A stretch of DNA of 64,000 nucleotides, from NCBI GenBank assembly GCA_015062055.1, contig SUVK01000005.1, positions 1 to 64,000 on the forward strand. Direction: 5' to 3'. The notes under the pieces are model-generated. The model did not search any database, was not told where the DNA came from, and saw nothing but the letters and a program-made list of their open reading frames with translations. How positions within the stretch are numbered: position 1 is the first letter of the stretch; each line of letters opens with the position of its first letter. Positions 9,828 through 17,281 of this stretch are shown here, one piece after another. A program made the translations under genes and the position numbers. The stretch is from Akkermansiaceae bacterium. Lineage in GTDB: Bacteria; Verrucomicrobiota; Verrucomicrobiia; Verrucomicrobiales; Akkermansiaceae.

Positions 9828-9900
9828 GGCCCTGTAGCTCAGTGGTCAGAGCAGGCGACTCATAATCGCTTGGTCGCGGGTTCGAGCCCCGCCGGGGCTA
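9828..9900 (+). tRNA. tRNA-Ile2 (CAU anticodon, lysidine type)
   Basis: GGCCCTGTAGCTCAGTGGTCAGAGCAGGCGACTCATAATCGCTTGGTCGCGGGTTCGAGCCCCGCCGGGGCTA. Anticodon arm and loop closely resemble E. coli ileX rather than tRNA-Met. Confidence 0.9.
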
Positions 9901-10090: not shown

Positions 10091-10163
10091 GCAGGTTGAA
10101 TTGATATTGAAGCTGCGCTTTTGATAAATAGACAGCAGATAAACAAAAAATCTGATTATCTTC

Positions 10164-10205
10164 TTGACAAAAGGGTAAAAATGCCTATGATTTTGTAAAA
10201 AGGAG
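10164..10205 (+). promoter_or_regulatory. sigma70-like promoter and RBS for cassette 1
   Basis: TTGACA (10164-10169), 16-nt spacer, TATGAT (10186-10191); AAGGAG at 10200-10205 before ATG 10213. Confidence 0.7.
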
Positions 10206-10212
10206 ATAAAAT

Positions 10213-11475
10213 ATGCTGGTTTTCTTTCGTATTTGCAATTTTAAGTCGATAGTGGAGACAACCATTGATATGCGCTATGGAGAAGGGAAGGCTCCGAATG
10301 GGTATAAGGAAATGGAGCACTATCCATTTTTGGAATATCAAGTTGCAAATGGCCGAGAGTTAAGATTGTCTCCTGTACTGGCTATTTATGGACAGAATGC
10401 CGGAGGCAAGACTACCTTAGTAGAAGCAATGAACACGTTGCGACGTTGTTTGTTTGAAAACAAATTACATTATCGCCCGAATAAGCTGCACCCGGATTTA
10501 AAAGACACTACGTTTGAGATTTGTTTTGCAAATGAGAGTGTGGTTTATACCTATACGCTTTGCTACAATTTAATCGGAGTAAAGCGTGAGACCTTGAGAA
10601 CGTATGATACGGATGTGTTTGAAATTGACCATGAGCAGGCTCTATACAACTTTGAGCAACTTGCTACGGAGCTGTACACGACTGAGCGCTTGATGGCTGT
10701 TTTGAAAACCGAGTGTTGCAATAGCAAGGGAGAGCAGATAGTCTCTTATCTAGGCAAGATTGCAACGAATTATCCCGGTTTAAATGCTAAGCTTAGCAAT
10801 GCCTACCAGTTCCTGATGTATGGTATATCCAACTCTCTGGAAAATGATTTCTCTGCCCCTTTTGCTATCAATTATTTGGCTCAGGGGGAGCAGGATTCTT
10901 CGCACGAGAAAGCCTTTCAGGAAATTGCTAAGTACTTGAGAAGGCTCGATATTGATATTGAAAGCATGGAATTGAAAACGAGTAAGGTGCAAACTTTTCT
11001 CGCCTCAGGTGAAGAAGACCCCCGAGGTCCAGAGTTGATGTATCGAATCAACAGCTACCATAAAGATAAGAATGGCGAATTGGTGGCATTGGATTTCCGG
11101 GAGGAGTCGCGAGGTACTCAGGTATTGTTCGGTTTGCTGGGGGTAGTGCTGAGAAAGCTCCGTACAGGAGGTGTGCTGGTCATTGATGAAATTGACCGGT
11201 CGTTGCATTCCTTGTTGCTTGTAGCATTGGTGTCTCTGTTCACCAATAAGGAGTACAATGTGAAAGGAGCTCAGCTTATCTTGACTGCTCACAATACTGA
11301 GTTGTTGGAGGCCACTAACTTGCGGACATCCCAGGTGGCCATTGTGACTAAGACCTCAAAACAAGGGACTCTTGCTCGCCGCTTGTGTGATTTTGATGGT
11401 GTCCGCAATGTTCAGAACTTCCGCAAGACGTATCTGGATGGCGCATTCGCAGGCATCCCATTCCCCATTATCTGA
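10213..11475 (+). CDS. AAA family ATPase, COG1106/RloA/AbiLi-like
   Basis: N-terminus FFRICNFKSI; Walker A YGQNAGGKTTL; Walker B GGVLVIDEIDRSLHS; C-terminal LILTAHNTELL. Confidence 0.85.
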   Translation: MLVFFRICNFKSIVETTIDMRYGEGKAPNGYKEMEHYPFLEYQVANGRELRLSPVLAIYGQNAGGKTTLVEAMNTLRRCLFENKLHYRPNKLHPDLKDTTFEICFANESVVYTYTLCYNLIGVKRETLRTYDTDVFEIDHEQALYNFEQLATELYTTERLMAVLKTECCNSKGEQIVSYLGKIATNYPGLNAKLSNAYQFLMYGISNSLENDFSAPFAINYLAQGEQDSSHEKAFQEIAKYLRRLDIDIESMELKTSKVQTFLASGEEDPRGPELMYRINSYHKDKNGELVALDFREESRGTQVLFGLLGVVLRKLRTGGVLVIDEIDRSLHSLLLVALVSLFTNKEYNVKGAQLILTAHNTELLEATNLRTSQVAIVTKTSKQGTLARRLCDFDGVRNVQNFRKTYLDGAFAGIPFPII

Positions 11476-11482
11476 CCTCGCC

Positions 11483-12136
11483 ATGACTTACTCTCAGAAC
11501 TTTTTTCTCCACGTGGTTTGCGAGGGCAAATCAGAGCGGAATTATCTTGCCGCATTGAATCGACTTCTGCGAGATTCCGGCATAGGTCTAACCTTGCTGA
11601 GTCCCACCCCTAAGAAAAGGGATGAGGATGGGGGCGGGCATTTCCGCAATGTTGTACAGAAGTACAAAGATTTCCGTCGCAACAATCGTAACGTGCAACC
11701 ATGGATATGGGTGGATTGGGATTTGTATTTGCGAAATGACCAGCACTGCATGGAGCTATATGAGTCTCGCCCCAAGGGGATACCTGACTTCCTGTTCAGT
11801 ATTCACAACTTCGAGGATTTTCTCGTTCTGCACAGCTCAACAGAACGTGTTCATGAGTGGGTGAACATTTGTCGGGAGTGTAACCACTTTGCCTCTCCCA
11901 TGCACAGCGAGGAATATATGCCCTTATTCAAGAGTCAATTTCCGGAATATAAGAAAGGTGAATTGCCGGATAGCTTAGCCATGCTCTCCAACGAGCAGGT
12001 AGCGAATGCGCTGATTCATTCATTGGATGCGAGCATCCCATTCAGATGCGACTTCATTGAGAAGCTTGCCGTGTTCATTATGGCGAGATATCCCGATGCC
12101 GGGAGACCGTGGAATATCGTTTATAAAGATTTATAA
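11483..12136 (+). CDS. RloB/AbiLii-like protein (TOPRIM-like fold)
   Basis: FFLHVVCEGKSERNYLAAL (acidic EGK motif near the N-terminus) and WIWVDWDLY; directly follows the RloA-like ATPase. Confidence 0.75.
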   Translation: MTYSQNFFLHVVCEGKSERNYLAALNRLLRDSGIGLTLLSPTPKKRDEDGGGHFRNVVQKYKDFRRNNRNVQPWIWVDWDLYLRNDQHCMELYESRPKGIPDFLFSIHNFEDFLVLHSSTERVHEWVNICRECNHFASPMHSEEYMPLFKSQFPEYKKGELPDSLAMLSNEQVANALIHSLDASIPFRCDFIEKLAVFIMARYPDAGRPWNIVYKDL

Positions 12137-12140
12137 TTCA

Positions 12141-13205
12141 ATGACTCGAGACGAGTATACAAAGTTCGAGGCATCTTTTAAAAATAGTCCGCACGTGGTA
12201 TTATTAGGTGCTGGAGCAAGTTGCGCAGCTATCCCGCAAGGAGATAGAAATGGACTAAAAATATCTGCGATGGATAATTTTATCCAAAATTTGGGCTTGG
12301 GAGGGATATTGAATGGAATTGAGTTACATACGAACTCAAAAAACTTAGAGGTAATTTATCAGGAACTTGTGGAAAGAGCAGTTTCAGAAATTGATTGTCA
12401 ACAAGCCTTGTCTAGCTTGAAAAAATCGGTTTGGTCATATATGTCGAAATTTGAACTTCCTGATTCACCTACGGTGTATGATTATCTTCTCCTTAGTATG
12501 ACTAAGAAGGATGTTATTGCTACGTTCAACTGGGATCCGTTGTTGGTACAGGCCTATATGCGCGTAGCTCGATTTACTCGGAATCTCCCTGAATTGCTCT
12601 TTTTACATGGTAATGTAGCAATTGGTTTTTGTGAACATGAAGGGACAACAATTGCCGGACCTGTAGGGGGAGTTTCTCCTTATGGAGAAGAATTTGAACC
12701 ATCTCCCTTGTTGTTTCCAATTAAGGAAAAGGGATATAATAAACATGTAGCAATAGCTCGTTCTTGGGAAATGTTGCAAAGATTCTTGTCCAAGGCTTAT
12801 ATGGTTACCATATTTGGATATAGTGCTCCGGAAAGTGATGTGGAAGCAATTGCATTGTTAAGTGGCGGATGGGGGGACCCCTCCAAAAGACGCTTTGAGC
12901 AAATCGAGATTATTGATATTGCAACTGACAGAGATTATGAAAAGATATGGGAAAAGTTCATATTTTCTAGTCATTATCAAGTATGTAGAAGCTTTTTTGA
13001 ATCCTCTTTGGGAAAGTATCCGCGCCGAACCTGTGAAGCCATTTTTGACCAAAATATGAATGTTCAATGGCTAAATCCCGACAAAGGCTGGCTTGCTGAT
13101 ACTTCGTTTGAACAGTTTTATTTAAAATTATCATCTCTTTTCATAGAAGAACGCAAACCTCGCGAGAGGCCGTATTTGTCTCATCCTTACATACTTGAAT
13201 TTTGA
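12141..13205 (+). CDS. SIR2-like domain protein
   Basis: VVLLGAGASCAAIP (NAD-binding GAGxS), VIATFNWDPLL, LFLHGN catalytic-His-like motif, IFGYSAPESD. Starts 4 nt after the preceding stop. Confidence 0.8.
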   Translation: MTRDEYTKFEASFKNSPHVVLLGAGASCAAIPQGDRNGLKISAMDNFIQNLGLGGILNGIELHTNSKNLEVIYQELVERAVSEIDCQQALSSLKKSVWSYMSKFELPDSPTVYDYLLLSMTKKDVIATFNWDPLLVQAYMRVARFTRNLPELLFLHGNVAIGFCEHEGTTIAGPVGGVSPYGEEFEPSPLLFPIKEKGYNKHVAIARSWEMLQRFLSKAYMVTIFGYSAPESDVEAIALLSGGWGDPSKRRFEQIEIIDIATDRDYEKIWEKFIFSSHYQVCRSFFESSLGKYPRRTCEAIFDQNMNVQWLNPDKGWLADTSFEQFYLKLSSLFIEERKPRERPYLSHPYILEF

Positions 13206-13806: not shown

Positions 13807-13877
13807 ACATTCAGCTTGATGTTTAATTATTTTGTGATAGAGTCTACGTAAAGCAGAGTTAGACATTCGTGGATACC

Positions 13878-14882
13878 ATGGTTATTAGTAATTCAAGCAA
13901 GGAAAGGGCGGGTAGAAATCGTACACTAGTTTTGAGTGATTCTGAAGTGCGTGAATATGCATCGCGTTGCATAACCTTGACATCAGAGACAAAAGAGAAT
14001 GATGTAATAGATTCTACCATTAACCAAGATTTGCTTGAGTGCATTGATTATTTGCCATCACGTTTTGCGGATCTCATAGTTATCGACCCTCCATACAATT
14101 TAGACAAAGATTTTCACGGTAAAGTGAAATTTAAGAAAATGGGTACTTCTGCTTATATTTCATATTTGGAATCGTGGTTCCCCAAAGTTCTGAGGCTATT
14201 GAAAGATAATGGTTCTCTGTATGTATGTTGTGATTGGAAGTCTTCGCCATTAATTTATTCTGTAATTGTAAAATATTGTACTGTGATAAACAGGATAACA
14301 TGGCAGAGAGAAAAAGGTAGGGGCGCGAAACATAACTGGAAAAACGGCATGGAAGATATTTGGTTTTGCGTTAAAGATGAGGACGACTATTACTTCGATG
14401 TGGATTCAGTAAAGCAGAAGCGTAGAGTTATTGCGCCATATAAAGAAGAAGGAAAACCAAAAGACTGGCAAGAAACTGATGAAGGGAATTTTCGAATTAC
14501 CTATCCTTCGAATTTTTGGGATGATATTAGTATCCCGTATTGGTCTATGCCAGAAAACACAGATCATCCAACTCAGAAACCTGAAAAGCTAGTAGCAAAA
14601 TTGATTTTAGCATCATGTCCCCAAGGCGGGGTGGTTTTTGACCCTTTTTTAGGAAGTGGCACAACATCTGTCGTAGCAAAAAAATTGGGACGTCGATATT
14701 GTGGTGTTGAAATTAACCCTTTGTATGCGGCATGGGCAGAAAAACGCCTTGAATTAGCTGAGTCAAATACTGAAATACAAGGGTATAACGGAGGAGTCTT
14801 TTGGGAGAGAAATTCATTAGCTGCACAAAAGAAATTGAAGAAGGTGATAACTAAGGAAGCACAAGGGGAATTGTTTTTATGA
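13878..14882 (+). CDS. site-specific DNA methyltransferase, beta-class (DPPY, probably N6-adenine)
   Basis: Motif IV VIDPPYNLDKDF precedes motif I FDPFLGSGTTSVVAKKLGRRYCGVEI; HPTQKPEKL present. Alternative GTG start at 13869. Confidence 0.9.
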   Translation: MVISNSSKERAGRNRTLVLSDSEVREYASRCITLTSETKENDVIDSTINQDLLECIDYLPSRFADLIVIDPPYNLDKDFHGKVKFKKMGTSAYISYLESWFPKVLRLLKDNGSLYVCCDWKSSPLIYSVIVKYCTVINRITWQREKGRGAKHNWKNGMEDIWFCVKDEDDYYFDVDSVKQKRRVIAPYKEEGKPKDWQETDEGNFRITYPSNFWDDISIPYWSMPENTDHPTQKPEKLVAKLILASCPQGGVVFDPFLGSGTTSVVAKKLGRRYCGVEINPLYAAWAEKRLELAESNTEIQGYNGGVFWERNSLAAQKKLKKVITKEAQGELFL

Positions 14883-16051
14883 GAGAAAAAACAATGTTAA
14901 GAGAATTTGTAGATTATATAGTCAGTGTTGCGCCCCGACACAACAAACAAACTCTTATAGTAGCAGCTTCTCAGACGTTTGGGTTGAAAAAAGATGGGAA
15001 AGTATATTATACCGAAACCTTTTCTGTTAGATTTTGTCATAGTAAAGGGCAAGATGGCAAGTTTTCCGGCACCGTTTTGGCGTTATCTAAATTGCAGAAG
15101 TATGACAGCAAGCCTTTTCTTGTTGTGTTGACGACAAGCGGTGAGAATTATGTATATTTGGCAAATACAACATTTTTGAATAAAATTAGTCATTCATCAA
15201 AGGAGCTGCGCGAGGATAATATAGTGGGCAGTTTTTTGGGAAGCAATATAATTCGAAACTTCCAAGATATTGAAAATTGTGCAGATAATGTAGAACGCTT
15301 GTATGCGTTTCATATGGATTCAACACCAGAAGAGAATTTGCGACGGTTAGTGGACTCAACTAATGCCATAGAGGCAAAGGGTAAGAAATATCAACCGGAC
15401 GAAATTGCTAAAAATAATATTTTTTCCTCAATTAGCAGAGCGATAAAATTTGTTAAGTCTAAACATTTTTCTGATTTGTGTAATGATTTGCATGACAGAG
15501 TAGAGCAATGTAAGGAAGCAATTTTGGCAGCGGCGCATATCGAGAACGTAAATATACGAGGACGTCTGATAGAGGTGTTAATTTGTTGTGACCCTGCTAA
15601 ACGGTTGGAATTGTTGCGCGAAATCAGAAGTATGGAGCAGAACATACCTCGCTATAAATCAGAAAATGAGTTAGCTGACTATGTTAAAAGTTATCCCGAT
15701 GTAGTTTCATATACTGATGTGAAAACGAAGGTGTTATACCTTAAGTCTAATCCCAAGGCCTATAATATTGATAAATTCCTTGAATGCATGGCGTTTGATT
15801 CTTCTGTATTTATGTTTTATTTTGTAGGAGTAAATGAAGAAGGCGTTGCCTGTACTGCATTGTGCTCTGCATATCATAGAGAGTTGGTAGACGCTACATA
15901 TATTCAACATCATTGGTGTGGTAGAAATTCTAGGGGTGTAACACAGTTCAATGGTGAATGCATTGAGAGTATACTAAACAATGCGAAGTTTCAAAATGTC
16001 ATTGAGGAAGAACAGGTAAATGATTATTTGCATAAATTATTATCATTGTAA
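14879..16051 (+). CDS. uncharacterised protein, probable cognate restriction endonuclease
   Basis: ATGA overlap with the methyltransferase. 390 aa with no motif I can assign securely; nuclease role inferred from context. Confidence 0.5.
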   Translation: MREKTMLREFVDYIVSVAPRHNKQTLIVAASQTFGLKKDGKVYYTETFSVRFCHSKGQDGKFSGTVLALSKLQKYDSKPFLVVLTTSGENYVYLANTTFLNKISHSSKELREDNIVGSFLGSNIIRNFQDIENCADNVERLYAFHMDSTPEENLRRLVDSTNAIEAKGKKYQPDEIAKNNIFSSISRAIKFVKSKHFSDLCNDLHDRVEQCKEAILAAAHIENVNIRGRLIEVLICCDPAKRLELLREIRSMEQNIPRYKSENELADYVKSYPDVVSYTDVKTKVLYLKSNPKAYNIDKFLECMAFDSSVFMFYFVGVNEEGVACTALCSAYHRELVDATYIQHHWCGRNSRGVTQFNGECIESILNNAKFQNVIEEEQVNDYLHKLLSL

Positions 16052-16057
16052 CATTAC

Positions 16058-17281
16058 TTGTCTAAGCGAGTGCTTAAGGGAAAAGTTGATGATATTATAA
16101 TTCAGGCACAAAAGGATTTGCTAAATGCAAATCTACTCGATAGCCCTGATTATATTGATTTGTATTCAGGGGGAGAAAATACGGCAGTAGTGCAACTATT
16201 GGCAACGCTGCACTATCATTATGTTGCTCTGTTTGAAAAGATGAATGCGCGTTTGCCGACAGGAGAACACGGAGCGCATTTTTTTGCTGATCCAAGTAGA
16301 GATTTGATACGAGTTATAGATGTTACTAATTTATTGCTTACCGGCTTAAAGGGTACTGAGTACTCTTTTGAGATTGAGGCTGAGTTTAAGAGTTTTGTGA
16401 ACATATGTAGACAGTTTTTGAGTGGTAGCGGTGGAAGTTCAATACCCCCGCATATACCGAAAGCTCCTATATATTATACAAGACAGATTTTCATTCCTTC
16501 AACTTCGGTGCAGATTGCAAGTTCAGTTTCTGATAAAAGAAATCTTAAAACAAAAATGATAGGTAGTGGCTCGTATGCAAACGTCTATCGTTTTCGTGAC
16601 GATTTCTATGGTCGTGATTTTGTGTTAAAGGTGGCGAAAAAGGATTTATCTGAAAGTGATAAGGAGAGATTTAGAAATGAGTATGTAGTCATGAAGGGGC
16701 TGTCTTCTCCATATGTTGCCGAGGTCTACAAGTATTTCGAAGGTAAAGATGAGTTTATAATGGAAAGTTTGGATGAAACTCTTTACCAGTATGTTTCCAG
16801 TCAAAATGATAAAGCAACATTTAATGTAGAAATCAGACGACGCTTGTGTTTACAGGTAATGAAGGCGTTTGAGTACATACACGAAAAACAAATTTTGCAC
16901 AGAGATATTAGTCCCTACAACATACTTATAAAAAAATATGAGGACTCAGTTGTTGTGAAGATAGCCGACCTGGGATTAGTTAAAATACCTGAAAGCGTGC
17001 TTACGAATTCTCAAACTGAAATTAAGGGTTGTTGTAATGACCCTCAGCTTAGACACGTTGGATATTCTAATTATTCACTCCCCCATGAGATTTACGCAAT
17101 CACGGTAATTACCAAGTTTATTCTTACAGGTTCTATGAATATATGTAATGTGAAGGATGATAGTCTTCGTGAGTTCGTAATGAGGGGTACAAATCCTGAG
17201 TTAGATAAGAGATATTCGAACGTAACAGAGATGAGAAAGTATTTTCAATTGCTACGGTTTTCCGGTTGTAGCCTGCATTGA
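16058..17281 (+). CDS. Hanks-type Ser/Thr protein kinase with unknown N-terminal domain
   Basis: IGSGSYANVYRF (P-loop), FVLKVAKK (Lys), ILHRDISPYNILI (HRDxxxxN), IADLGLVKI (DLG in place of DFG). TTG start 6 nt after the previous stop. Confidence 0.85.
   Translation: MSKRVLKGKVDDIIIQAQKDLLNANLLDSPDYIDLYSGGENTAVVQLLATLHYHYVALFEKMNARLPTGEHGAHFFADPSRDLIRVIDVTNLLLTGLKGTEYSFEIEAEFKSFVNICRQFLSGSGGSSIPPHIPKAPIYYTRQIFIPSTSVQIASSVSDKRNLKTKMIGSGSYANVYRFRDDFYGRDFVLKVAKKDLSESDKERFRNEYVVMKGLSSPYVAEVYKYFEGKDEFIMESLDETLYQYVSSQNDKATFNVEIRRRLCLQVMKAFEYIHEKQILHRDISPYNILIKKYEDSVVVKIADLGLVKIPESVLTNSQTEIKGCCNDPQLRHVGYSNYSLPHEIYAITVITKFILTGSMNICNVKDDSLREFVMRGTNPELDKRYSNVTEMRKYFQLLRFSGCSLH

Follow-up and report, generated by a model that had tools for sequence, protein, structure and literature searches.

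The AbiL system of Lactococcus lactis is formed by the proteins AbiLi and AbiLii, and a pair of the same type is known as RloA and RloB. RloB proteins have been related to OLD_TOPRIM domains, and AbiLii has been termed a toxic effector (PMC10440598). In the PARIS system, which is composed of AriA and AriB, the ATPase restrains a TOPRIM nuclease and lets it go once it senses a phage protein, and AriB cleaves tRNA (PMC12409363). Other phage defence systems employ SIR2 proteins. The residues N133 and H171 of DSR2 and N113 and H153 of ThsA belong to NAD+ sites, and the substitutions N133A and H171A abolish the NAD+ cleavage by DSR2 (PMC11087589). A locus from an Akkermansiaceae bacterium, described here, contains an ATPase gene, a gene for an RloB-like protein, and a gene for a SIR2-like protein in tight succession. 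A sequence-only reading of the locus proposed that the three genes form a composite defence system. The supposed three-gene system is replaced here by a known AbiL pair and a lone SIR2 family that was missed by the searched libraries.

The window that was analysed is a stretch of 64,000 nucleotides (assembly GCA_015062055.1, contig SUVK01000005.1, positions 1 to 64,000), and all the features discussed below are on its forward strand. A tRNA-Met gene at positions 9828–9900, identified by ARAGORN and by the DNA match of the tRNA region, is followed by three reading frames at 10213–11475, 11483–12136, and 12141–13205. The frames are open, as had been read from the sequence, with ATG codons at 11483 and 12141, and are separated by gaps of 7 and 4 nt. 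The start of the SIR2 gene at 12141 fits the starts of its homologues, about 15 residues ahead of a conserved PHVV motif. The three genes had been placed behind a single clear promoter. The candidate upstream of abiLi, TTGACA-16-TATGAT at 10164–10191, indeed outscores every other sigma-70-like site in the region, with a match of 11/12, but the number of such sites (9) is close to that expected from shuffled sequence (9.1), and the promoter is retained as a candidate. Because the gap between the abiLii and SIR2 genes is only 4 nt, we infer that in this genome the AbiL promoter also drives transcription of the SIR2 gene. The genes are likely to form an operon here, and the three proteins may be co-expressed, a point against two independent units.

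The SIR2 gene is followed by a Type II-like DNA methyltransferase (13869–14882; Pfam N6_N4_Mtase 3e-43, PADLOC MTase_II 3e-66), a Type II restriction endonuclease (14879–16051; PADLOC PDLC03461 REase_II 3.2e-99), and, closing the island, a gene resembling Ser/Thr protein kinases (16058–17281; Pfam Pkinase 5.3e-29, with PADLOC matches to mad6, Stk2, and PD-T4-6). The AbiL pair, the lone SIR2 gene, the Type II restriction-modification pair, and the kinase most likely constitute a defence island behind the tRNA-Met gene, which is the probable insertion anchor. In another genome of the same genus (G071), a different DNA methyltransferase is positioned between tRNA-Met and an AbiL pair (L133, 2276–3496), which gives the tRNA-Met site the look of a hotspot for defence genes within the genus.

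The first gene encodes a 420-residue ABC-like ATPase (P0001). The protein matches the PADLOC AbiLi model essentially over its full length (residues 1–417; 5.9e-65), Pfam AAA_21 (7.3e-24), and PADLOC AriA (6e-23), and contains the Walker A motif GQNAGGKT (10390–10413) and the Walker B motif VLVIDEID (11173–11196). The 217-residue product of the second gene (P0002) carries the motifs CEGKSE, VDWD, and NFEDF. It matches Pfam RloB with 34.4 bits, above the cut-off of 31.5 (E-value 3.3e-8), and PADLOC AbiLii with 31 bits (6.4e-8), which characterizes it as a divergent member. Its residues Glu14, Asp78, Asp80, and Glu111 are invariant in a three-sequence alignment with two relatives from the same genus, and are at positions expected for the acidic residues of TOPRIM domains, an assignment made by motif and not by structure. 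The AbiLi-type ATPase gene, the AbiLii/RloB gene directly downstream of it, the intact Walker A and B motifs, and the TOPRIM-like acidic residues are features of AbiL. Judged from these matches, which are far above chance, genes 1 and 2 are an AbiL-type pair of an AbiLi/RloA ATPase and a divergent AbiLii/RloB. The protein identities that had been assigned from motifs hold, and with them the abortive-infection character suggested for the locus appears to be right. A second AbiLi/RloB pair is present in the same genome (G000) on contig C75 (1473–2299, L136), without a SIR2 gene.

The third gene encodes a 354-residue protein (P0003) to which the Pfam, PADLOC, NCBIfam, and PHROGs libraries offered no relevant match. 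The SIR2-like identity proposed for it from the motifs GAGAS (12207–12221), TFNWD (12522–12536), and FLHGN (12600–12614) is confirmed by its fold and by the invariance of the motifs in 47 homologues. The AlphaFold2 model of P0003, calculated from a 47-sequence alignment with rows from genome loci only and the plasmid records left out, has a mean pLDDT of 91.3. The model was matched by Foldseek, with a probability of 1.00 and TM-scores of about 0.4–0.5, to the SIR2 of SIR2-HerA, PsSIR2, ThsA, Avs5, DSR2, and canonical sirtuins. The residues Asn130 and His156 are invariant in 47/47 homologues, and by motif they appear to correspond to the NAD+-site residues of DSR2 and ThsA named above. P0003 has a SIR2 fold with the catalytic Asn and His, and is predicted to bind NAD+ and to act as an NADase. 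A Pfam AbiH match was obtained for one of 50 SIR2 relatives (7.7e-6). No informative match came from sequence searches of the PDB, for which the three proteins and two SIR2 alignments served as queries; the viral contigs and phage records contained no close SIR2 homologue, and a limited search of the open literature with few terms found no description of the lone SIR2 family.

The neighbourhoods of the SIR2 gene were compared at the 85 best-scoring other loci, 80 from genomes of many phyla and five from plasmids. RloB, searched for with a profile built from 43 sequences, is present at 0/85 of these loci, a set that includes two fragmentary plasmid loci and several loci that end at contig ends, and that leaves 121 lower-scoring SIR2 matches outside. 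An AbiLi-like ATPase gene is directly beside the SIR2 gene at a single one of the 85 loci (L078), on the downstream side and without RloB. The neighbours of the SIR2 gene are varied, and include BrxL of BREX, DRT reverse transcriptases, Mrr, SLFN_AlbA_2, restriction genes, serine recombinases, and rlmD. Defence genes are often found among them, which gives the impression of an enrichment.

A recurrent neighbour of the SIR2 gene is an rlmD-like gene, encoding a 23S rRNA methyltransferase, at L015, L016, L021, L023, and L024, where the rlmD-like gene was identified in L015 and the neighbours in the other four loci were assigned by clustering with it. Serine recombinases are near several of the SIR2 genes, and the rlmD-like site is likely to be an integration spot of mobile elements. 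In two Bacteroidales (L038, L044), a gene encoding a 677-residue protein shares a 1-nt overlap with the SIR2 gene, in a similar multi-gene cluster; it is possible that the 677-residue protein is the true partner of SIR2 in these two loci. SIR2-family fragments are positioned beside apmA on Enterococcus faecalis plasmids (L006, 8076–8653; L007, 8001–8699), and are apparently decayed remnants.

The SIR2-like protein might be a sirtuin-type deacylase or an ADP-ribosyltransferase that is carried on mobile elements and has no role against phages, and not an NADase effector. This explanation covers gene 3 alone and is compatible with the independence of the two units. Cysteines at the columns equivalent to residues 164, 179, and 181, after the catalytic His, are present in 39–40 of the 47 relatives and are reminiscent of the sirtuin zinc site; canonical sirtuins are among the fold matches, and some copies of the gene are beside metal-resistance genes (L003). 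However, the best fold matches are the defence proteins SIR2-HerA, PsSIR2, and ThsA, defence genes are frequent among the neighbours, and the SIR2 protein from the window keeps only Cys164, having lost two of the three cysteines. We consider a deacylase or an ADP-ribosyltransferase somewhat unlikely. Gene 3 belongs to a broad lone-SIR2 family without a library model, for which a defensive role is plausible. It can be proposed tentatively that the family, which the four libraries named above do not model, is a widespread single-gene SIR2 defence, present in mobile elements and defence islands of many bacterial phyla, and that its members act as self-contained phage-triggered NADases without HerA, TIR, pAgo, or a large sensor.

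The SIR2 gene is absent from two genomes of the same genus that carry related AbiL pairs. In G071, the AbiL proteins are 72% and 70% identical to those of the window, and their genes are also downstream of tRNA-Met, with a different gene next to them. In G092, the proteins are 38% and 40% identical, and the pair is positioned beside argS. The DNA similarity between the window and G071 covers 10137–12117, breaking off where abiLii ends. The composition changes at the border between the AbiLii and SIR2 genes, where GC3 drops from 0.56 to 0.33; the value is 0.50 in AbiLi, and that of the SIR2 gene resembles the downstream restriction-modification genes (0.32–0.34, including the kinase). Across the phylum, 67 of the 388 genomes sampled carry RloB and 4 of the 388 carry the SIR2 family of P0003; RloB counts from the genome search with PF13707 are lower bounds, because this search missed the RloB of the window (G000:C14:11483–12133), although hmmscan places RloB there above the Pfam cut-off. 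AbiL pairs thus occur without SIR2 both within the genus and through most of the phylum.

SIR2 and AbiL genes do occur together in an island of one genome from another family of the phylum (G332, L148), which contains, on one strand, a restriction-type gene, SIR2, a gene for a 323-residue protein, AbiLi, and AbiLii. The gene order, the spacing, and the AbiL subclade differ from those of the window, and the two AbiLi proteins are 23% identical. When the window genome is excluded, three genomes of the phylum carry this SIR2, and two of the three contain RloB as well, against a background of 17% (Fisher p 0.077), and in one of them (G351) the two genes are on different contigs. The co-carriage is compatible with defence-rich genomes, and SIR2 and AbiL may be loosely associated.

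The composite of ATPase, RloB, and SIR2 is rejected on the homologue neighbourhoods, the phyletic pattern, the border of DNA similarity, and the composition. The triad is not conserved across homologous loci, and the SIR2 gene appears to be only incidentally adjacent to the AbiL pair, an outcome that the sequence-only reading had itself named as refuting its proposal. The locus probably consists of two independent defence units, the AbiL pair and the lone SIR2 gene, located side by side in an island anchored at tRNA-Met. It is improbable that the SIR2 gene is an add-on second layer on AbiL transcription, with a separate mechanism and a nearness selected in this lineage through co-expression or back-up killing: the common strand, the 4-nt gap, and the shared islands in two verrucomicrobial families agree with such a layer, but the exact arrangement is present in one genome only, and no second genome with the junction of AbiLii and SIR2 was found in a 145-genome sample of the family. 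A true three-component system, in which AbiLi would sense the phage and control both the nuclease AbiLii and the NADase SIR2 as effectors, agrees with the tight packing of the genes and with the second island in G332, but is very improbable given the AbiL pairs that lack SIR2 (those of G071 and G092 and the one on contig C75), the 85 SIR2 loci without RloB, the composition break, and the differing order and spacing in G332.

With AbiL and SIR2 as independent units, each would have its own mode of action. By analogy with AriA and AriB of PARIS, the AbiLi ATPase may sense the infection and keep the TOPRIM-like nuclease AbiLii/RloB inactive; upon phage infection, AbiLii would be released and growth would stop. 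The single-gene SIR2-like protein most likely binds and hydrolyses NAD+ by means of Asn130 and His156, and may serve as an abortive effector that is either stand-alone or triggered by a host factor. If the lone SIR2 family is defensive, it provides a compact NADase of about 350 residues, for which either the SIR2 protein or a host factor must do the sensing. The interest of the locus centres on this widespread family without a model.

The closest solved fold to P0003 is the SIR2 subunit of SIR2-HerA (Nezha, GAO_19; Foldseek E-value 8e-10), which is of similar size and has the catalytic Asn and His. However, the identity is 14–18%, the TM-score is about 0.5, and P0003 is without an adjoining HerA gene. 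The single DUF87 match of the genome is on another contig (C63), the neighbours of P0003 are AbiL and restriction-modification genes, and membership in SIR2-HerA was rejected. P0003 shares the SIR2 fold and the NADase Asn/His pair with the SIR2 domains of ThsA (Thoeris), DSR2, Avs5, SPARSA, and KomC, whereas its 354 residues include no SLOG, STAND, pAgo, or large sensor domain. Thoeris combines a ThsA containing SLOG with a ThsB TIR gene; gene 3 encodes SIR2 only, and is surrounded by AbiL, methyltransferase, endonuclease, and kinase genes. The pair of genes 1 and 2 resembles PARIS in having an ABC-type ATPase and a separate TOPRIM nuclease. However, gene 1 fits the AbiLi model far better than AriA, and gene 2 is without an AriB match; in PADLOC, P0002 matched AbiLii and no other model, and PARIS was rejected. 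The pair has the same order of ATPase and RloB/TOPRIM-like genes as AbiL and RloA-RloB, with PADLOC matches for both genes, and differs in its divergent AbiLii and in the unrelated SIR2 gene that comes next. The AbiL pair is a further example of a known system.
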